Shown here in pieces: positions 189 to 9,848 of a DNA stretch of 64,000 nucleotides. A model generated the notes under the pieces. That model made no database searches, had not been told where the DNA came from, and saw nothing but the letters and a program-made list of their open reading frames with translations. The position numbers were made by a program, and so were the translations under genes. Each line of letters starts with the position of its first letter. Position 1 is the first letter of the stretch. This DNA comes from an uncultured Bryobacteraceae bacterium (lineage in GTDB: Bacteria > Acidobacteriota > Terriglobia > Bryobacterales > Bryobacteraceae), in contig CALDSU010000012.1 in the NCBI GenBank assembly GCA_937924525.1, positions 1 through 64,000 of the forward strand. Reading direction: 5' to 3'.

Positions 189-283
189 GGAAGCCAATCC
201 TGGCCGGTGCTGGGCCTGGTCTTCAAAACCAGCGTGCGGTCGTTCCGATCGCGGGTGGGTTCGACCCCCACTGGCTTCCGCCA
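189..283 (+). tRNA. selC: tRNA-Sec (anticodon UCA)
   Basis: This is a 95-nt tRNA with an 8-bp acceptor stem (189-196 with 272-279), discriminator G280 and an encoded CCA (281-283). It has a six-pair D stem with wobbles and an anticodon loop CTTCAAA carrying TCA. A long variable arm has about seven pairs (GCGGTCG with CGATCGC). The T arm has five pairs (255-259 with 267-271) and the loop TTCGACC. The 8+5 acceptor/T architecture, long variable arm and UCA anticodon are specific for bacterial selenocysteine tRNA, which inserts Sec at UGA codons with SelB and a SECIS element. No selA, selB, selD or obvious selenoprotein is in this window, so they must lie elsewhere. The closest relative here is a SelA-like PLP protein (36578-37777), which I do not regard as SelA. 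Confidence 0.95.
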
Positions 284-306: not shown

Positions 307-1764
307 TCAGCCGGAAGCTCGGCCCGGTTGAGGGGCGGCAGTCTTGAATCCGCGGCGCTCCATGATGCCCCATCCGCCGCGCTTGCCCTTCAGTCCTTCC
401 CACAGGCCTTGCACCCGCCACCAGGTGAGCAGTTGCCGAAAGCCCAGGTTTTCGAGGACCGCCGCGGCGAACAGTTTCAGTGAATCCCGCCAGGAGGGAT
501 AGCGCAGCGTGGTCAGCTCCTCCAGCAGCACGGCGCTGGTGGAGAGCAGCACGCCGAAGACAATCGACACGGAGAAGAACAGCAGGCCGACCTCGGGCGC
601 AATGATGCGGAACACCAGGCCGAGCACAGTGAGCACATAGCCCAGCAGCTCCACCGCGGGGCCGAACATCTCGAAGAACAGGAAGTAGGGGAACGCGAAC
701 ATGCCGACCAGCTTGTAGCGGGGGTTGAGCAGCATTTCGCGGTGACGCCACAGGCTCTCAACGGTGCCACGCTGCCAGCGGCGCCGCTGGCGCTGCAAGA
801 TCTTCAGGGTCTGCGGCACCTCGGTCCAGCAGACCGGGTCGGCCACGTAGACGATGCGGTAGGCCTGCCGGCGGTCCAGGTAAAGATGGTGCAGGCGGAC
901 AATCATTTCCATGTCCTCGCCTACGGTGGAATGCTCGAAGCCGCCCGCCTCGAGCACGGCTTCCCGCTTGAAGAGGCCGAACGCGCCGGAAATGATGAGC
1001 AGGCAGTTGAGCAGGCTGAAGCCGACCCGTCCGCCGTAGAAGGCGCGCATATACTCGACGGCCTGGAAGTTCGCCAGCATCGACGAAGACGTGGTGATGC
1101 GGACGACGCGCCCGTCGCGCACTTCGCAATCGTTGACCGCGCGCACGGTGCCGCCCACCGCGACCACCCGCTCGGGATCTTCCAGATACGGTTTGACCAT
1201 CTCGAGCAGGCCGGCGCGGTCGATGATCGAGTCCGAGTCCACCACCATCACCAGCGGCGAACTCGCCATGTTGATGCCCGCGTTGATGGCGTCGGCCTTG
1301 CCGCCGTTGTGCTTGTCCACCACCACCAGCCGGACGGGATCGGCGGACTGGTAGACGCGGCGGACCGGCTTGGTAGCCAGGGTCCCGATGGGCGCCCGGG
1401 CGGACTTGTAGAGGTGGAAGGCCTCGATCAGCACCTGGAGCGTCGCGTCCTGGGAGCCGTCGTTGACCACGATAACTTCGTAGTCGGGGTAGTCGAGTTT
1501 GAGCATGCCGCTTACGCTCTGCTCGACGGTCTTGGCCTCGTTGTAGGACGGCACAATGATCGAGATGGCCGGCATCAGGGGCGAGCGCATCAGCGCCTCC
1601 CGCTCGGCGCGCGAGAAGGGCGCGTGGTGGCGCCGCATGGACACCAGCGCCATCACGGTCAACGAGAGATAGATGCTGTTGATGACGAAAACATAGAGAA
1701 TGATCCCGCCCTCGACGAAGAAATAGAACCGGTGGACGATGATGTCGAGGGTTTCCCAGTTCAT
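307..1764 (-). CDS. Membrane family-2 glycosyltransferase (PgaC-like processive synthase)
   Basis: This 485-residue inner-membrane glycosyltransferase probably polymerises an exopolysaccharide from nucleotide sugars. An N-terminal membrane segment (about 15-40) precedes a GT-A domain. Visible motifs are NDGS at 101-104, DSD at 176-178, GED at 283-285 (general base region) and QRQRRRW at 324-330, the Q-x-x-R-W acceptor motif of processive GT2 enzymes. Two to three membrane segments follow (about 345-430). The chosen start overlaps the stop of the upstream HEAT gene as ATGA, so translation is coupled; longer in-frame starts would run far into that gene. No PilZ or MshEN domain is seen. The substrate is unknown; poly-GlcNAc or a related glycan is a guess from family resemblance. 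Confidence 0.85.
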   Translation of the reverse strand: MNWETLDIIVHRFYFFVEGGIILYVFVINSIYLSLTVMALVSMRRHHAPFSRAEREALMRSPLMPAISIIVPSYNEAKTVEQSVSGMLKLDYPDYEVIVVNDGSQDATLQVLIEAFHLYKSARAPIGTLATKPVRRVYQSADPVRLVVVDKHNGGKADAINAGINMASSPLVMVVDSDSIIDRAGLLEMVKPYLEDPERVVAVGGTVRAVNDCEVRDGRVVRITTSSSMLANFQAVEYMRAFYGGRVGFSLLNCLLIISGAFGLFKREAVLEAGGFEHSTVGEDMEMIVRLHHLYLDRRQAYRIVYVADPVCWTEVPQTLKILQRQRRRWQRGTVESLWRHREMLLNPRYKLVGMFAFPYFLFFEMFGPAVELLGYVLTVLGLVFRIIAPEVGLLFFSVSIVFGVLLSTSAVLLEELTTLRYPSWRDSLKLFAAAVLENLGFRQLLTWWRVQGLWEGLKGKRGGWGIMERRGFKTAAPQPGRASG

Positions 1765-2948
1765 GCCAGCTCCAGGCCAGGCGAGGGGCCGGCAGCCGCG
1801 GACAGGGCTTCGGCGGCGCGGGCGGCGGGCAGGGCGCCGCCTTCGCGCAGCAGCCGGCGGAGGATTTCGGCGCCGTCCGGCCCGAAGTGCGCCAGCGCCG
1901 TGCACGCCAGACGGGCCAACTCGCCAGATCCCCCGCTCGCGAGCCGCTCAAGCAGGGGCAGCCAGGAGGGTGCGCGGAAAGCCGCCGCCGCCGACAGTGC
2001 GGCGGCTTGCGCCTGTTCCGAATCCGACTCGAGCGCCCGGCGCACGTAGCGTTCCACGTCCTGCCCCTCGGCGGCGAACGGCGTCAGGCGGAGCGCCCGG
2101 GCACGCACCGCGGCCGAAGGGTGCCGCATCAATTGCTCGAGGAAAGGCAGCCGGAGCGCCTTTCGCCAGCTTTCGGCCAGTTCCAGCGCGGCCAGCAGCC
2201 GGGCGGTGTCGCCCGCAGCAGCCTCGGCGGGCAGCGCGGTCTGGCACAAGTCCAGGGCGTGCCGGCGCATCTCGCCGGCCAGCAGGACCCGAACCAGATA
2301 CGGTTTGCCAACGATCAGCGAAAAGACCCAGGCGGCATCTTCCCGCCGTGGGGAGCGGGCCAGCAGGCGGCACGCCGAGGCTTCCACCAGCGGCGTCGAA
2401 CGGCGCGCCAGCCGGCGCAGGGCGGGGCTGCCATATTCGCCAGCCAGCAAACCCAGGCATTCGAGGGCGTGGCGGCGCTCGCGCTCGGGTGCGCGGCGGG
2501 CCCAGCGTTCCCAGCGGCGGACCAGCCGCAGTTGTTCGGCCAGCGCGGTCAACCGGACGCGGCCTTCGCCACTTACCAGCGAAAGGAGGCGCTCCAACGC
2601 CCGGTCGAATTCGGCGGGATAGCGGCGCTCCAGCGCGCGGAGACCGGCCAGCCGGCCATCGCCCGCCGCGTACGCGGCCAATGCCTTCAGCAAATGCGGC
2701 CGCACCCGCCGGGAGCCCATCTCCCGGGCCAGCGCCGCGCGCTTCAATGCGCACGACGTCAGCAACTGGCACAGAATCACCGCCGCTTGCACCGTCAAAA
2801 ACGATGCCGCCAGTGATAACGGCAGCTCCTGCCAGTGGTGGGAGAAGTACTCGACGTGCAGAAACCAGACCGGGTAGAAGAACGAAGCCAGGATGACCGC
2901 GGCGCGGAACCACATCCCCGCCCGGATCAACCTCTCGCCAACCGTCAT
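1761..2948 (-). CDS. Membrane-anchored HEAT-repeat protein
   Basis: The protein has 395 residues. Two hydrophobic N-terminal segments (about 12-30 and 45-65) are followed by roughly 300 residues of short amphipathic helical pairs rich in Ala, Leu and Arg, typical of HEAT-like repeats. This suggests a cytoplasmic scaffold tethered to the membrane. No catalytic motif is visible. ATG at 2948 lies one base after the stop of the receiver gene; an in-frame ATG at 2969 would overlap it by 20 bases and is less likely. Its stop overlaps the start of the glycosyltransferase. The three-gene order receiver, HEAT, GT2 suggests that the HEAT protein links a signalling partner to the polymerase. That role is inferred only from adjacency. 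Confidence 0.75.
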   Translation of the reverse strand: MTVGERLIRAGMWFRAAVILASFFYPVWFLHVEYFSHHWQELPLSLAASFLTVQAAVILCQLLTSCALKRAALAREMGSRRVRPHLLKALAAYAAGDGRLAGLRALERRYPAEFDRALERLLSLVSGEGRVRLTALAEQLRLVRRWERWARRAPERERRHALECLGLLAGEYGSPALRRLARRSTPLVEASACRLLARSPRREDAAWVFSLIVGKPYLVRVLLAGEMRRHALDLCQTALPAEAAAGDTARLLAALELAESWRKALRLPFLEQLMRHPSAAVRARALRLTPFAAEGQDVERYVRRALESDSEQAQAAALSAAAAFRAPSWLPLLERLASGGSGELARLACTALAHFGPDGAEILRRLLREGGALPAARAAEALSAAAGPSPGLELA

Positions 2949-2949
2949 G

Positions 2950-4110
2950 TCACGACGCCCGGGCGACAAGACGCTGCACGCGCGCCGCCACTTCCATAGG
3001 ACTGAACGGCTTGGTGATGTAGTCGTCGGCGCCCAGTCCGAACCCGCGCAGCACGTCGGACTCGGATTGGCGAAGTGAAAGCATGGCCACCGGCAGCGTC
3101 GCCAGTTCCGGCGTCCGCCGAACCTCGGCCAGCACCTGGAAGCCGTCCAGGCCGGGCATCACCACTTCGAGGATGGCGGCGTGGGGCTGCTCCTGCTTGA
3201 GCAAGTCCATGGCCGCGCGGCCGTGCTCGGCCTCGAGGCAATCCATCCCGCACCGGTCGAACGCCGTCGCCAGCAAAGTGCGCGAAGCGGAATCGTCGTC
3301 GGCCACCAGCACCCGCGTCCGTTCCGCTTGGCCGCGGCGGCGTCTGGACGGACTCCGTTCGATCAGACCCGCCGTTCGCCACACCAGCTCCTCGGAATCC
3401 CACGGCTCGTTGACAAAATCCACGACGCCGCGCTGGTGCACGTGCGCCAGCTTGCACAGAAGCCGGCGCGGACCCGTCACCAGCACGGGAAACCCACGCC
3501 GCAGCAGGGTGTCGACGAAGGCGGGATCGGGCGCGGTGGGATCTTCGCCCACGCGCACGATCAGCAGGTCCAAGTGGTTCAAATTGCCGCCATCGGCCGC
3601 TGTCTGGAACAGCCCCATCGCCTCGACTACGCTGAATTGCGCGGTCAGGCACCGCTCGATGGCGATCGCCTCGGGCGGAGCGAACCCGATGGCGGTGATC
3701 CGCTTGCGGGAAAGCGCCGCGTAGAGGCTCCGCGGGGAATCGAGCGTCCTCGCCGCCGTCCGCCCTTCGTCGATCCTTGGCGGGGCGCTGTAAGCTAAGC
3801 GGAGCTGCGGCGGTTCGGCCCCCGCATCCTCGGAAGCTGAAGCTTGCGTTTCCGCCGCCGCGACTGCCGCCAGCACCTCGCCTGCCGGGTTCATCCCTTG
3901 GCCGAGGGGTGCGGGAGCCGTGTCCGAAGCCGGCGCGGGCGTCGCTGCGGGCTTAGCTTCCGGCGCGGGCTCCGCTGCTGGTTCCGCCACCGGCCTCCTG
4001 CGTGGACGCGCCACGCCAAAACCCAATCGGGAAGACAGGCGCACCAAGTCAATCAGGCCATCGTAGCCCGTACCCAATTCTGCCGCGTCTTCGTTGAACA
4101 GCCGGACCAC
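2950..4110 (-). CDS. Receiver-domain protein with Glu at the phospho-acceptor site
   Basis: This 386-residue protein starts at GTG, with GGAGG just upstream. Residues 1-35 form a short conserved-looking segment and 36-125 a Pro/Ala-rich linker. Residues 136-250 resemble a degenerate receiver-like alpha/beta fold, and 264-384 form a clear CheY-like receiver. In the C-terminal receiver the acidic pair D271/D272, the MPG-x-DG loop (318-323), S345 and K367 are all present, but the phospho-acceptor position is Glu315 (codon 3166-3168), not Asp. Glu at this site often mimics the phosphorylated state. There is no DNA-binding or enzymatic output domain, so it probably acts by protein contact, perhaps on the HEAT protein or GT2 encoded immediately downstream. 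Confidence 0.8.
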   Translation of the reverse strand: MVRLFNEDAAELGTGYDGLIDLVRLSSRLGFGVARPRRRPVAEPAAEPAPEAKPAATPAPASDTAPAPLGQGMNPAGEVLAAVAAAETQASASEDAGAEPPQLRLAYSAPPRIDEGRTAARTLDSPRSLYAALSRKRITAIGFAPPEAIAIERCLTAQFSVVEAMGLFQTAADGGNLNHLDLLIVRVGEDPTAPDPAFVDTLLRRGFPVLVTGPRRLLCKLAHVHQRGVVDFVNEPWDSEELVWRTAGLIERSPSRRRRGQAERTRVLVADDDSASRTLLATAFDRCGMDCLEAEHGRAAMDLLKQEQPHAAILEVVMPGLDGFQVLAEVRRTPELATLPVAMLSLRQSESDVLRGFGLGADDYITKPFSPMEVAARVQRLVARAS

Positions 4111-4259
4111 ACTCCTCCCAACGCAATCCCTACTTCGGCAGAGCGCGCTTATTCCTTTAGGGGTACTGGTGACGCGTACGGTGACTCCCCGAAGGTACTA
4201 AGGGGAATACGCAGTCTGTACCGGCACGGCGGGTCTGCCGATCTCTGCCAAGACGCACG

Positions 4260-5402
4260 ATGCCACTCGGGAGGCCAAGCGCGGCCGTATTGCTGACGAT
4301 GCTCCTTGCACCTTCCGCGACCGCGGAGGATGTGGTCCAGCGTGCGCGCGCCCTGGCTGCGGGAAAGCAACGCGCGGAGGCGCTGAAGCTGCTGGCGTCC
4401 CGGCTGGCCGAGGCGCCGGGCGATCTGGACGCCCGGACGCTGCTGGGCGCCGTGTTGTCCTGGGAGGGCCGCTACGAGGAGGCGCGGGGACAATTGCAAA
4501 TGGTCCTCGAGACCGAACCGGGGCACGGCGACGCCACCCTGGCGCTGATGAATGTGGAGTTGTGGTCGGGCCACGGCGACCGCGCGGAGGAGTTGGCGCA
4601 GCAGGCCATCGCGCAAGCCCCGGAGTTCCTACCGTTCCAGGAGGCGCTCGCACGGGTGCGGCGGCAGCGGCGCGCGGCCCTGGCCGAGCCCCAGGTCCAC
4701 GACGTGAAGTGGGAAATGGGCCTCGAGCGTTCCTCCATCTGGTTCAGCGACTCGCGGGACTCCTGGCGGGAAGCCAGGCTGGCGGCGCGCGTGGGTACGG
4801 TGGCGGGACCCGTTTCGGCGAGCGCATCGCAGGCCGCGCGCGGCCGCCTGACCGACCGCATCTTCGAAATCGAGATATTCCCGCGGCTCAATCGTCTGAC
4901 GTACTTCCACGTCATGGCGGGCTACTCCCCGGAAGCGGAACTGTACGCTCGGCGAAGGTACGGCGCGGAACTCTATCGCGGGCTGCCCGCGCGCTTCGAG
5001 GGCTCAATCGGCTTCCGCCAGTATGTGTTCCGGCAGCGGGTGGATCTGATCACCGGTTCGCTCGGCCGGTATTACGGCCGGTGGTTCCTTTCCGCGCGGC
5101 CCTTCGTGGACCGGTCGGCGTTCGGCGTGTCGACTTCTTTGCAGGTCAACGCCAAGCGCTACCTCGGGCGGCGGGGCGGCTATTGGAATAGCCGTGTGGG
5201 GTGGGGCGCTTCGCCCATGGAAGTACGCAGCGTCAATGAGGCGGGAATCCGGAGCTCGCTGTCCTTTTTCCAGGATCTGTACTTGCCGCTTCCGTCCGGG
5301 CTCCAATTCCGCGTCTCCGGAGGGGTGGCCAGTCAGAACCGGCGAGACCGCGGCGCGCTGCGGCAATACGGTTTGAGCGGAACGCTGCTCTATGGGTTCT
5401 GA
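4260..5402 (+). CDS. TPR plus YaiO-family outer-membrane beta-barrel protein
   Basis: This 380-residue exported protein has a signal peptide (about 1-22, ending SATA). Three or so TPR-like helical repeats follow (about 24-130). From about 145 the sequence alternates aromatic and polar residues and ends in Phe (LLYGF), the C-terminal signature of outer-membrane barrels. This arrangement is that of the YaiO family, whose members sit beside exopolysaccharide glycosyltransferases and are thought to form the outer-membrane exit. It is divergent from the receiver/HEAT/GT2 genes, with 149 bp between. I infer that it is the outer-membrane partner of that polymerase. Confidence 0.8.
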   Translation: MPLGRPSAAVLLTMLLAPSATAEDVVQRARALAAGKQRAEALKLLASRLAEAPGDLDARTLLGAVLSWEGRYEEARGQLQMVLETEPGHGDATLALMNVELWSGHGDRAEELAQQAIAQAPEFLPFQEALARVRRQRRAALAEPQVHDVKWEMGLERSSIWFSDSRDSWREARLAARVGTVAGPVSASASQAARGRLTDRIFEIEIFPRLNRLTYFHVMAGYSPEAELYARRRYGAELYRGLPARFEGSIGFRQYVFRQRVDLITGSLGRYYGRWFLSARPFVDRSAFGVSTSLQVNAKRYLGRRGGYWNSRVGWGASPMEVRSVNEAGIRSSLSFFQDLYLPLPSGLQFRVSGGVASQNRRDRGALRQYGLSGTLLYGF

Positions 5403-5405
5403 TCT

Positions 5406-5423
5406 GCGGTACCACGCGGTACC
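5406..5423 (+). repeat. Tandem GCGGTACC direct repeat, 10-bp period
   Basis: Two copies of GCGGTACC lie at 5406-5413 and 5416-5423, exactly one helical turn apart. Each contains the palindrome GGTACC. They sit just after the YaiO stop and 175 bp before the next gene. They could be a regulator site or part of a terminator stem; nothing further can be said. Confidence 0.4.
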
Positions 5424-5489
5424 CCTGTGGAAAACCCAAGCGATCTCCCGCGCTGCCAATGACTTATCCTGTTGGAAATCTTCCGTTTG

Positions 5490-5574
5490 GTACATGTGTA
5501 CTACGTCGCTTTTCGCCTTGGGACCAAGGAACTCCCGATGCCCAAAAGGAATAGCCCCAGCCGAACATGGGGCT
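5490..5574 (+). promoter_or_regulatory. Structured leader between the YaiO and DUF11 genes
   Basis: The 196-bp gap (5403-5598) contains an inverted repeat GTACA-TG-TGTAC (5490-5501) and a perfect 7-bp hairpin, AGCCCCA with TGGGGCT (5553-5574, 8-nt loop). The hairpin has no following T-tract and stands 24 nt before the start codon. This looks like a 5' leader rather than a terminator. I compared it by eye with cyclic-di-GMP and cobalamin riboswitch cores and saw no match. Confidence 0.35.
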
Positions 5575-5598
5575 AGAGTGCAGCTCGGAAGATCGGAA

Positions 5599-7644
5599 AT
5601 GCGTATCCTTGCGTTGTTCGCGGTAGTTCTGGCGCTGGCCTTGCCGTCATGGGCCGTGGTTGCCGGCGAGCGGCTGAGTCCCGTGCTGGAGTATGTGCTT
5701 CAGGCGGGGCCTGGTCAGTACGATGCCTACTTCGGATACCTGAATAACAACGCCGTCGCGGTGACCATTCCGGTGGGCGCGGACAACCGGTTTACGGGCG
5801 TCCAGGACCGCGGCCAGCCTTCGGTGTTCCAACCGGGCCGGCAGGTGGCGGTGTTCGTGGTGCGGTTTGACGGGAACGACCTGGTCTGGACGCTCAAGGG
5901 ACCGGACGGCAACACGCGCACTGCGACCGCGTCGAAGAACCACGTGATCCCACCGGGCACTGCCGACCTGAGCCTGACGGCGACCGGATTGATCAACGGT
6001 CAGGGCGACGCCGAGGTGACCTTTACGCTGGCCAACCTCGGACCTTATCTGGCAACCAACGCCAAGGTGCAGATTTCACTGCCTGGCGGCTTCACCCTGG
6101 TGGACAGCGTGGCCGAGGAAGGCGCCACGCAGCGCACCCCCACGGGCCTGCAATGGGACTTGCCGGTGCTGGCCAGCAAGGCGTCGCGGCGGATTCGCGT
6201 GATCGCGCGGGGAGACCGGACGCAAGGGAACACCGAAGTTCGGGGGAACTGCGCGCACCAGGGACCCGACCCCAACCCGTCGAACAACCACGCCTCCTAC
6301 ACCATTGCGGGGCAGGCCGGCGGCGCCGCGGATAACGGACTGGAAAGCAACGGGCGGCTGGCCCTGCTGCTCGCGCGCCGTTGGGCGTTGCGGGAAACCG
6401 GGGGGCCGCGCGGGAAGAGCCGGATCCGGCTGGCCGAAGGCCGACCCGACACGGAGCTTGGGGCTTTGCTGCCCGCCTGCGGGCCGGCCGAGACCGTCGC
6501 GGTGGCCAGCGCTCCCGCCGACCTGATCGGCGTGACCAACGCCGCCTCGGTGGCGGGCGCCGACTATGTCGACGGCAACGGCAATCGGCAAGGCGCTGTG
6601 CTGGCCATCGCGACCGACTCCGGACTATACGAACACGCCAAGGCGGTCTGCGAGCGCGTCGCCAGGGGCGTGCTCGAGCAGATTCGCGCGATTCGCGTCA
6701 ACGGGCTGCCGTTCCTGATGGCGAAAATCCGCCGGGGCGATGGGGCGATCGAGTACGCGGTCAGTTTCGCCGTGTCGCCGGCGGGCGTCCCGTGGCGGGT
6801 CGACAGCCGGTGGAACCCGGCGCTCGCCCCCCGCTTCAACGGGACCAGGGTGCTGAATTTCCAGGTATGGGCCGCCAACGCGGAGTTCGCCGAAGGGCTG
6901 GTGGCAGGAATCCTCGAGCGGATGCCCCGCGCCGTCTCGGACGATCCCGATGTGGCGCCTCCTGCCGTCTTTGTCCGCAGCGCGCGTTACCAGAGCGGCA
7001 CGCTACGCCTCGAGTTGGAACGGCTGGACGCGTCGATCCAGACCGTCACCGTGGCGGGCTCGCTCGCCCTCACCGAACCGGGCCAGCGTTCCTGGGTGGA
7101 GTACGAGGTCCCGTTCGCACCCGCGGTGACGGTCCCGACCGGCCCGTTCTTCGACTTCGATTTCCGGATGGGCGAAGACCCGGCCTACGTCGCCGACGGC
7201 GCGTGGAGTTATTGGGTGGCCCCGGAGGACGGCCGGGTGGCCGAGTTTGAAGTGCTGGCGCAGCCTTCCACCGGGGCGGACCACGGAGGCGCGCCCGTCG
7301 AGCGAGGCATCCGGGCTTCGGGCCGCGTCGAGACGTACGTGTCTTTCTTCCGCCACCTGCTGCCCAAGGCGCTGCCCGTGGATCTCCGCGCGTTTGCGGC
7401 GATCGAGTTCACCGCCGCCGGCGAGGGGACGTTGGAAGTCATCCCCGTCAAGTCCAGCATCCGGACGCCCGCCGCTCAATACCGGCGGCGTTTCCCGCTA
7501 ACGGGCGGCGGCGAGCGCCTCCGCCTGGACCTCACCGGCTTCGACGCGCACGACGTCACCACGCTGTATTTCAACGTGCTGGGCACGGGCGCCTTCGACC
7601 TCCGGATCGAGGACGTGCGCCTGGTCCCTAACCCCGGCGAATAG
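5599..7644 (+). CDS. Secreted protein with a DUF11-like domain and a C-terminal beta-sandwich
   Basis: The protein has 681 residues. The start at 5599 gives a clean signal peptide (residues 1-23, LALPSWAVVAG) preceded by GGAA; an in-frame start 69 codons earlier would bury it. Residues about 120-235 form a DUF11/CARDB-like immunoglobulin fold with the typical closing phrase PDPNPSNN. A central region (about 250-440) is of unknown type. The C-terminal 150 residues look like a carbohydrate-binding or CIA30-like beta-sandwich that ends in IEDVRLVPN. It is probably a surface or extracellular adhesion or matrix protein made together with the adjacent polysaccharide locus. No catalytic residues are recognised. 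Confidence 0.7.
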   Translation: MRILALFAVVLALALPSWAVVAGERLSPVLEYVLQAGPGQYDAYFGYLNNNAVAVTIPVGADNRFTGVQDRGQPSVFQPGRQVAVFVVRFDGNDLVWTLKGPDGNTRTATASKNHVIPPGTADLSLTATGLINGQGDAEVTFTLANLGPYLATNAKVQISLPGGFTLVDSVAEEGATQRTPTGLQWDLPVLASKASRRIRVIARGDRTQGNTEVRGNCAHQGPDPNPSNNHASYTIAGQAGGAADNGLESNGRLALLLARRWALRETGGPRGKSRIRLAEGRPDTELGALLPACGPAETVAVASAPADLIGVTNAASVAGADYVDGNGNRQGAVLAIATDSGLYEHAKAVCERVARGVLEQIRAIRVNGLPFLMAKIRRGDGAIEYAVSFAVSPAGVPWRVDSRWNPALAPRFNGTRVLNFQVWAANAEFAEGLVAGILERMPRAVSDDPDVAPPAVFVRSARYQSGTLRLELERLDASIQTVTVAGSLALTEPGQRSWVEYEVPFAPAVTVPTGPFFDFDFRMGEDPAYVADGAWSYWVAPEDGRVAEFEVLAQPSTGADHGGAPVERGIRASGRVETYVSFFRHLLPKALPVDLRAFAAIEFTAAGEGTLEVIPVKSSIRTPAAQYRRRFPLTGGGERLRLDLTGFDAHDVTTLYFNVLGTGAFDLRIEDVRLVPNPGE

Positions 7645-7688: not shown

Positions 7689-8627
7689 TCAAACCAGGCG
7701 CCGGAGCTTGGTGACTCGCCCGATCTCCACCCATTCGGCCACGAAGATATTCCCTTCGTGGTCGAAGCAGGCGCCATGCGGGCAGATGAATTTGCCGGGG
7801 CGGAAGTTCTCGCGGGGCTGGCGGCGGAGTTGGCTGTAGTCTCCGGTGCTGTCTTCGCCCAGGTGCGCCAGCGGCTGGTTCTGGCGGTCGAGCAGGGTCA
7901 CGCGGGAGGCCAAGTCGGGAATCAGCAGCACGCCATCCCGCTCGTCGAAGTGGCAGGGAAGGTGCACTGCTCCGCTTTCCGTGCGGACCCAGCCGCCGTC
8001 CAGCGTGAAGTACTGCAAACGCCGGTTGGTGCGGTCCGCCACCAGCAGCAGTGGTTCCGGTCCCCGCGTGTCGATGGTGAGCCCGTGCGGGCAGTTGAGC
8101 TCGCCATCCCGATCCCCAGGCGCCTCGCCAATGGTCCGGAGGTAGTTGCCGTGCAGGTCGTATTGCAGGATGAAACTGGAACCATAGCCGTCGGCCAGGT
8201 AAAGGTCGCCGTTCGGGGCGATCGCCACGTTGGTCGGGCTGAACTTGCGCCCGTCCTGATAGCGCTCGGAATCCCGGGGGTAGGTCAGCCGCAGGACTTC
8301 TTCGCCCGCGAGCGTGGTCTTCACCACCACGCCGTGCAGAAAATCTGTCAGGAAGAGGAACTCGTCGGCGCCCTCTCGGACGTACTGGAGACCGTGTGCG
8401 CCGCCCTGAAACTCGCTCCCCCAGGAGCGGACGAATCGCCCTTCCGGGTCGAACACCGCCACGGCGTCCGGCGAAGCGCTGGACGCATGGACGGTATGGC
8501 AGATATGAATAAAGCCTTGGGCGTCCTCGCACACCCCGTGCGTGTTCCCGAAGCGCAGGGTGTCGGGCGGCTGCGCCCAATCGTGAATCACTTCATACTG
8601 GTGCTTGCCGTGGCCGGTGATCAGCAT
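7689..8627 (-). CDS. NHL-repeat beta-propeller protein
   Basis: This 312-residue protein is built of NHL-type blades. Phrases such as PNGDLYLADGYG, CPHGLTIDTRG and CPHGACFDHEGNIFVAEW mark successive repeats. ATG at 8627 is preceded by GGGAGA, and a TACACT -10 box lies 10 nt upstream; longer in-frame starts run into non-protein-like sequence. No signal peptide is visible, so it is probably cytoplasmic. The similarity to the beta-propeller of peptidyl-glycine hydroxyglycine lyases suggests ligand binding or lyase activity, but no substrate can be named. It converges with the DUF11 gene and is divergent from terC. Confidence 0.75.
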   Translation of the reverse strand: MLITGHGKHQYEVIHDWAQPPDTLRFGNTHGVCEDAQGFIHICHTVHASSASPDAVAVFDPEGRFVRSWGSEFQGGAHGLQYVREGADEFLFLTDFLHGVVVKTTLAGEEVLRLTYPRDSERYQDGRKFSPTNVAIAPNGDLYLADGYGSSFILQYDLHGNYLRTIGEAPGDRDGELNCPHGLTIDTRGPEPLLLVADRTNRRLQYFTLDGGWVRTESGAVHLPCHFDERDGVLLIPDLASRVTLLDRQNQPLAHLGEDSTGDYSQLRRQPRENFRPGKFICPHGACFDHEGNIFVAEWVEIGRVTKLRRLV

Positions 8628-8637
8628 CGGTCTCCCG

Positions 8638-8643
8638 AGTGTA
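8638..8643 (-). promoter_or_regulatory. -10 box 10 nt before the NHL gene start
   Basis: TACACT on the minus strand, with TTGGCC 19 nt further upstream as a weak -35. With normal spacing the transcript would begin about 3 nt before the ATG. It is one of several very short-leader promoters in this window. Confidence 0.45.
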
Positions 8644-8813
8644 GCGGATGTTGCGCCCGGGAGGCCAATCCTGCGATTGTTCCTGGGCACGGCTACGGAA
8701 CTTTCTATCGATCGACGGGCCCGCCCCGTTCTATCCTGAAGCCAGGGAAGAGCCACTCTGCCCATCCGGCTGTCGCCCCGCGTCGTGCCCGATAATAGCG
8801 AAGAGCCCTCTCG

Positions 8814-9848
8814 ATGCCGAAGTACGTCACCCTGTTTCCGTTCGAACAATATTGGTGGTTTTACGCCGCGTTCAGCGTCTTCGTGATCTTTCTGCTGCTG
8901 ATTGATCTGGTGGTCTTCCACCGCAAGGCGCACCGGGTCACGCTGCGGGAGGCCGGCGTGTGGTCGGCGGTCTGGGTTTCGCTGGCGCTGCTGTTCAATG
9001 TGGGGCTATATTTCTACGCGGTCTGGCAACTGCCGCAGGACCCGCGCCTGGCCGCCGTCGCCGGATTCGACCCGCAGGCCGCGGCGCGCCGGGTGAGCCT
9101 CGAGTTCCTGGCGGGCTACCTGGTGGAGTGGTCTCTTTCGATTGACAACCTGTTTGTCTTCCTGGTGGTGTTCGGCTTTTTCGCGATTCCCCCGGCCTAT
9201 CAGCACCGCATTCTGTTTTACGGGATTCTCGGCGCCATTATTCTGCGCGGGTTGTTCATCGCCATCGGCACAGCGCTGATGCGGTTCCACTGGGTGATCT
9301 ACGTGTTCGGGGCGTTTCTGATCTTCACCGGCCTGCGGATGATTTTCGGCCAGGAGAAGCAGCTGGAGCCCGACAAGAACCCGGTGATCCGGATGTTCCG
9401 CAGGTGGGTGCCGGTCACCGCGCAGTTCGAGGGGCAGAACTTCTTTGTCCGGGTCAAGGGCGTGTTGCACGCCACGCCGCTGTTCGTCACCTTACTGTTC
9501 GTGGAAATGACCGACCTGGTGTTCGCGGTGGATTCGGTGCCGGCGATCCTAGCTCTCACCCGCGAGCCGCTGATTGTCTTTACCTCGAACGTGTTCGCCG
9601 TGCTGGGCCTGCGCTCGATGTACTTTTTGCTGGCCGGGGTGGCCGACAAGTTTCACCTGCTCAAGTACGGTTTGGGCATCGTGCTGGTCTTTGTGGGGCT
9701 GAAGATGATCTGGTTGAACGACCTGTTTGGCGGCCACTTCCCCATCGGCTGGTCGTTGGGCATCATCGCGGGGGTCATCGGGAGTTCGGTGATCCTCTCG
9801 CTGGTGTTTCCCAAAAAGCAGGAAGCCGTCAGCTGTTCGGCGGACTGA
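8814..9848 (+). CDS. TerC-family integral membrane protein (probable metal exporter)
   Basis: This 344-residue protein has about nine hydrophobic segments. TerC signature regions are clear: YLVEWSLSIDNLFVF near 105-120 and FVEMTDLVFAVDSVPAI near 225-240, both with membrane-embedded acidic residues (E and D) proposed to bind cations. The family includes Mn(II) exporters and proteins that supply metal to secreted enzymes. The ATG has only a weak Shine-Dalgarno. The 170 bp upstream show no recognisable yybP-ykoY (manganese) riboswitch. It is transcribed in the same direction as gdhA but 198 bp apart, so the two are probably separate units. Confidence 0.9.
   Translation: MPKYVTLFPFEQYWWFYAAFSVFVIFLLLIDLVVFHRKAHRVTLREAGVWSAVWVSLALLFNVGLYFYAVWQLPQDPRLAAVAGFDPQAAARRVSLEFLAGYLVEWSLSIDNLFVFLVVFGFFAIPPAYQHRILFYGILGAIILRGLFIAIGTALMRFHWVIYVFGAFLIFTGLRMIFGQEKQLEPDKNPVIRMFRRWVPVTAQFEGQNFFVRVKGVLHATPLFVTLLFVEMTDLVFAVDSVPAILALTREPLIVFTSNVFAVLGLRSMYFLLAGVADKFHLLKYGLGIVLVFVGLKMIWLNDLFGGHFPIGWSLGIIAGVIGSSVILSLVFPKKQEAVSCSAD

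Follow-up and report, generated by a model that had tools for sequence, protein, structure and literature searches.

Genes of the cassette

The window, i.e., the whole stretch of 64,000 nucleotides analyzed here (contig CALDSU010000012.1 of an uncultured Bryobacteraceae bacterium), contains close to its start a candidate polysaccharide secretion cassette, in which minus-strand genes for a receiver (REC), a HEAT-repeat protein, and a membrane glycosyltransferase of family 2 (GT2) diverge from a plus-strand gene for an outer-membrane YaiO barrel with tetratricopeptide repeats (TPRs). The 3 minus-strand genes form a tight operon joined by stop/start overlaps or abutments. The receiver protein (2950–4110, 386 aa; Pfam Response_reg, E 2.6e-24) is followed by the HEAT protein (1761–2948, 395 aa; HEAT_2, E 4.1e-08), whose likely start, ATG 2948, lies directly 3′ of the receiver stop (TGACATG); its longest open reading frame (ORF) runs from TTG 2969 (1761–2969, 402 aa). 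Likewise, the GT2 gene has its longest ORF at 307–1905 and a likely start at ATG 1764, which gives a protein of 485 aa (307–1764; Glyco_tranf_2_3, E 2.4e-28) and a 4-bp overlap with the HEAT gene. The TPR-YaiO gene occupies 4260–5402 on the plus strand (380 aa; PF19413, E 3.3e-33), and the intergenic region in between (4111–4259) presumably holds the promoters of both operons. Together with the gene of a secreted DUF11 protein, all 5 genes listed in the first-pass annotation are present according to ORF, Pfam, and NCBIfam scans.

The catalytic motifs of the GT2 are complete, comprising NDG (residues 99–104), DSD (174–179), GED (282–284), and QRRRW (326–330), and the protein is a membrane GT2 with the processive motifs expected of synthase-dependent polysaccharide secretion. 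The Pfam scan assigns it to glycosyltransferase families only, with no match to PilZ or to any other cyclic-di-GMP-binding domain. Its best NCBIfam match is PgaC_IcaA (TIGR03937) at 147.6 bits (cut-off, 422.3), and cellulose synthase (TIGR03030) scores 65 bits (cut-off, 699.1). According to these curated cut-offs, the GT2 is ruled out as an orthologue of PgaC, CelA, or NodC.

As for the HEAT protein, a single strong hydrophobic segment (residues 42–60, counted from ATG 2948) supports a predicted membrane anchor. Its gene adjoins or is fused to the GT2 gene in 106 of the 108 loci that carry a close GT2 relative (among the matches listed), and the remaining 2 (L064 and L075) begin at a contig edge. 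The HEAT model matches none of 507 background ORFs (≥200 aa, outside the cassettes), and in a separate test Pfam HEAT_2 matches 63 of 69 proteins adjoining a GT2, that of the window included. In 6 loci of Mollicutes, Bacilli, and Bacillota, HEAT and GT2 form one protein of ~950 aa. The predicted fold of one such natural fusion (L082) has a predicted local distance difference test (pLDDT) score of 89.5 and a predicted template modelling (pTM) score of 0.85. Its GT2 half aligns with PcManGT, hyaluronan synthase, and BcsA (Z 26.9, 25, and 24.4, respectively), and a synthase-type fold is thus found via the fused homologue. In this first structure-library comparison the GT2 half fills the list, and the HEAT half is therefore poorly tested; most rows of the alignment behind the model are unfused, and its pTM gives indirect support for a fixed arrangement of the 2 predicted halves. 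The pairing and the natural fusions point to the HEAT protein as an obligate partner or subunit of the synthase, whose role would be regulatory.

One relative also contains REC-HEAT pairs with no adjoining GT2 (L020:7119–10547 and L021:7758–10219), which hint that the pair might be a reusable control unit. In L020, the gene after the pair was judged by eye to encode a PilZ-DnaJ-like protein.

The YaiO assignment passes both available cut-offs (PF19413, 115.5 vs 23.9 bits; TIGR04390, 98.4 vs 32 bits), and TPRs are also detected. An AlphaFold2 model built with 33 homologues (pLDDT 92, pTM 0.68) predicts TPR helices at residues ~22–142 and a 14-strand barrel at 151–379. For this model, Foldseek ranks 1–3 comprise Escherichia coli BcsC and then PelB of the PelBC complex, with PgaA at rank 7. 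The YaiO sequence model finds a match close to the GT2 in 58 of 75 loci from diderms vs 1 of 33 from monoderms or archaea; the Fisher test on these counts ignores kinship, and, as the model includes TPRs, a few calls (e.g., Deinococcus L145) may be TPR only. Family match, repeats, model, and co-occurrence agree that diderm cassettes encode, along with the synthase, an outer-membrane barrel that contains TPRs.

Recurrence and neighborhood of the cassette

The cassette spans about eleven bacterial phyla and haloarchaea. A GT2-alignment scan of ~85,000 species genomes yielded at least 80 loci, to which Acidobacteriota genomes and plasmid records were added. The sample is incomplete and, because 2 of the 3 scan seeds (L014 and L022) had themselves been found via HEAT, not fully blind; it follows GT2 similarity, over-represents Paenibacillus, and includes metagenome bins that may be mislabelled, and ORFs are called only approximately where loci are rich in GC. 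L065 is a metagenome-assembled genome labelled Klebsiella pneumoniae, the cassette GT2 of which groups with Alphaproteobacteria, and it is probably mis-binned.

The Acidobacteriota sample comprises 297 genomes; the GT2 is matched at E ≤ 1e-60 in 63 of them, and all 20 of those opened carry an adjoining HEAT gene. Within the same bacterial family, divergent HEAT homologues (~30% identity) adjoin a REC and, mostly, a GT2. In G034 the genes run REC-YaiO-HEAT-GT2 and overlap by 4 bp, and in G048 they run YaiO-TPR-sulfatase-like-REC-HEAT-GT2. Four further loci of this family (L015, L016, L017, and L018) have REC-HEAT-GT2 operons with a GT2 26–31% identical to that of the window and represent a diverged branch of the cassette. 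Annotated records repeat the pattern, with REC-YaiO-HEAT-GT2 and an adjoining Hpt gene in Mesorhizobium ciceri, receiver-TPR-HEAT-GT2 in Erythrobacter aureus, and REC-HEAT-GT2 in the haloarchaea Salinirubellus and Haloarcula. Because the set recurs in ~100 divergent genomes, it is not a chance association, and this wide recurrence rules out a local oddity. Rare co-occurrence in relatives had been named beforehand as the outcome that would count against the system; what is found is conservation of REC, HEAT, and GT2, accompanied by YaiO in diderms.

Operonic neighbors (n = 89) include HisKA (11), Hpt (6), sulfatase (5), and UDP-sugar dehydrogenase (4) genes, as well as acyltransferases, and a polysaccharide deacetylase belongs to the cassette of G034 (locus L014). 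Membrane enzymes resembling sulfatases or lipoteichoic acid (LTA) synthases are present in L022, L024, L026, L045, and L147, as identified by Pfam for L045, by annotation for L147, and by eye for the rest. In place of YaiO, many Bacillota copies encode a secreted protein of ~740 aa, which reads by eye as a TIM-barrel-like glycosidase and has no Pfam match in the copies scanned. This protein (L090:6506–8737, L074:12206–14434, L033:6568–8817, L034:5066–7240, and L081:5313–7718) recurs among the cassettes of monoderms and is also present at a single locus of Deltaproteobacteria. In Marinifilum breve, a CotH kinase gene (L097:7485–8804) stands between YaiO and HEAT.

The DUF11 protein (5599–7644, plus strand) behaves differently from the cassette genes. 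Its longest ORF begins at 5392, the start with a signal peptide is ATG 5599, giving 681 aa, and the DUF11 domain covers residues ~135–236 (E 2.4e-12). Across 81 genomes of the family only partial matches are found (~residues 4–121, in 7 other genomes), and the draft genome with the nearest GT2, SZAS-8 (L023), shows no match. On the basis of these 81 genomes and one draft relative, the first-pass annotation's inclusion of this protein in the machine is not upheld: such sparse and partial matches rule it out as a cassette member, and it is judged a neighbor.

On the other side of the cassette, a selenocysteine tRNA with anticodon TCA (189–283, plus strand) adjoins the 3′ end of the GT2 gene; as a strong SelA match exists elsewhere in the genome (C15), selenoprotein synthesis is likely. 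Beyond the DUF11 gene lies an NHL-repeat protein (7689–8933, minus strand), whose best NCBIfam match, ScyF, is below cut-off. Its real start is probably further in, because the listed one overlaps a TerC-like gene at 8814.

The phospho-acceptor position of the receiver

The window receiver consists of a Pro/Ala-rich N-terminus, a receiver-like segment, and a C-terminal receiver, and it is without the extra N-terminal receiver and Hpt-like segment that relatives carry. The residue at its phospho-acceptor position is Glu (ILEVVMPG; GAA codon at 3166–3168, minus strand) in place of Asp, according to the receiver alignment and the survey of cassette receivers. Among the other features of a phosphorylatable regulator, the acidic pair (VADDDS) and Lys (TKPFSP) are kept, and Thr is replaced by Ser.

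Considering the cassette receivers nearest the GT2, 66 have Asp, 24 Glu, and 2 Asn. Diderm copies account for 59 Asp vs 2 Glu, the latter being the window and a Myxococcota locus (L027), and monoderm and archaeal copies for 7 Asp vs 22 Glu; Glu recurs chiefly in Bacillota and Mollicutes. The other Acidobacteriota receivers read have Asp, except one with Asn (L063). A non-phosphorylatable receiver, as proposed in the first-pass annotation, is therefore not the rule, and several of the diderm copies stand beside histidine kinase and Hpt genes. Because most cassette receivers keep the phospho-acceptor Asp, the Glu of the window copy is derived, yet it is recurrent, with at least 7 Asp/Glu changes on the GT2 tree (a quick tree with several weak forks).

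The window receiver might also be a decaying remnant, its switch lost and the synthase unregulated or idle. Such decay would explain why no other Acidobacteriota receiver read has Glu and why this copy has neither the N-terminal receiver nor the Hpt-like segment seen in relatives. However, the reading frame, the acidic pair, and Lys are intact, and the presence of Glu in 23 other cassettes, together with the repeated changes on the tree, suggests a selected state, which makes a remnant rather unlikely.

Cyclic-di-GMP, acting via PilZ or similar domains, is the switch of the best-known bacterial polysaccharide synthases. HEAT and receiver had been proposed to replace this control, and the absence of a PilZ match on the GT2 agrees with such a role. 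However, the proposal is too strong. When inspected by eye, the GGDEF domain to which the receiver is fused in several copies from Bacillota, Mollicutes, and Myxococcota looks degenerate, and the genome of the window has GGDEF and PilZ genes, although none inside the cassette.

Proposed function and comparison with known systems

The cassette is probably a synthase-dependent polysaccharide system that would work in the manner of Pga, Bcs, Pel, or Nfr, with the HEAT protein as an obligate subunit of the synthase and the receiver as the switch. The earlier picture of an inner-to-outer-membrane glycan machine is consistent with the predicted folds and the neighboring genes. Judging from its fold, the GT2 would polymerize a sugar nucleotide in the cytoplasm and thread the product across the membrane via a channel of its own. 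With an N-terminal helix as its anchor and the repeats in the cytoplasm, the HEAT protein would serve as a regulatory subunit, and the receiver may bind HEAT and thereby switch the synthase. HEAT and receiver would thus stand where PilZ/BcsB control sits in known systems. In most diderm copies a phosphorelay probably drives the receiver; in the window copy, which combines the Asp-to-Glu change with the absence of both the N-terminal receiver and the Hpt-like segment of relatives, the receiver would be fixed in an on-like state. TPR-YaiO would provide the periplasmic guide and the outer-membrane pore for the chain, a role proposed because of its architecture and because cells that lack an outer membrane almost never encode it. 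Finally, relatives encode UDP-sugar dehydrogenase, polysaccharide deacetylase, sulfatase/LTA-synthase-like enzymes, acyltransferase, and a TIM-barrel-like secreted protein, a repertoire that suggests a polymer, possibly with uronic acid or an amino sugar, that is modified once made.

Several observations weigh against this interpretation. Sequence matches of the GT2 in the PDB are weak (41 bits at best), the putative receiver-HEAT contact is drawn from gene order only, and the putative HEAT-GT2 interface comes from the pTM of one fused homologue and not from the window proteins. The window cassette itself contains no deacetylase, hydrolase, or kinase gene. As for the barrel, a second structural comparison puts it nearest to TodX/FadL, CymA, and OmpG (Z ~20), and known polysaccharide export pores have 16 or 18 strands, more than the 14 predicted here. 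Together with the lack of YaiO within 5.5 kb of the GT2 in about a quarter of diderm loci, the strand number and these matches might indicate that YaiO is an accessory, either a small channel or a surface anchor, and that the polymer exits otherwise or stays periplasmic. We consider this improbable in view of the TPR-plus-barrel build, the BcsC and PelB matches at the top of the Foldseek ranking, and the scarcity of YaiO in lineages with no outer membrane; in addition, L022 and L024 do have YaiO further upstream.

Another possibility is that, instead of making a secreted polymer, the GT2 adds sugars to a lipid, a teichoic-like or other envelope anchor, with YaiO and the sulfatase/LTA-synthase-like partners building or modifying a glycoconjugate. 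The top structural match, PcManGT, is indeed a mannosyltransferase, genes of the sulfatase and LTA-synthase superfamily recur, and cassettes are present in Mollicutes and haloarchaea. Nevertheless, the GT2 has the QxxRW motif, the match of its fused homologue to hyaluronan and cellulose synthases extends across almost 400 residues, and the TPR-barrel partner resembles BcsC and PelB, which leaves glycoconjugate assembly quite unlikely.

If the synthase interpretation is true, phosphorelays can gate polymer synthesis directly, with or without an outer membrane and even in haloarchaea, the poorly known YaiO barrel acquires a role that can be tested, and the natural Glu-receiver variants are ready-made test cases. 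More tentatively, and with somewhat less than even confidence, we propose that REC-HEAT-GT2 is a distinct class of regulated synthases in Bacteria and Archaea, with HEAT in place of PilZ/BcsB, a receiver that gates directly and not via transcription, and several lineages that froze the receiver independently by Asp-to-Glu replacement.

Hyaluronan synthases share a similar membrane GT2 fold (Z ~25 for the fused homologue) at a sequence identity of ~16%, and to our knowledge they have no HEAT partner. The E. coli K-12 yaiO-yaiX-yaiP-yaiS stretch also combines a YaiO barrel with a nearby GT2 and a putative deacetylase. However, YaiP is 28% identical to the window GT2 over only 243 aa and the stretch includes neither HEAT nor receiver, which rules it out as the same system. 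Compared with Bcs and Pel, the likeness concerns the BcsA-like synthase fold of the fused homologue and the top structural matches of the TPR-barrel, BcsC and PelB; in contrast to Bcs, the cassette GT2 has no PilZ match and remains below the CelA cut-off. The Pga system provides the best NCBIfam match of the GT2, and PgaA is also a TPR-barrel and a Foldseek match, but the GT2 is below the PgaC cut-off and the cassette has HEAT and receiver where Pga has PgaD.

No published description of the REC-HEAT-GT2 set was found among open-licence PubMed Central (PMC) papers, which is weak evidence, and the passages of PMC8669469, PMC8250860, and PMC10434189 that were consulted do not describe it; within this literature, the earlier statement that no characterized system has this set still holds. 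The closest described small system is NfrA-NfrB-YbcH of E. coli (PMC8669469), a small operon for an inner-membrane polysaccharide synthase and a TPR-containing outer-membrane barrel (PMC8669469, PMC8669472). NfrB is a cyclic-di-GMP-binding effector, and the Pfam scan lists no domain of that kind for the cassette GT2; no HEAT protein or receiver is described in those passages. Nfr and the cassette are both small synthase-type operons with a TPR-containing barrel.

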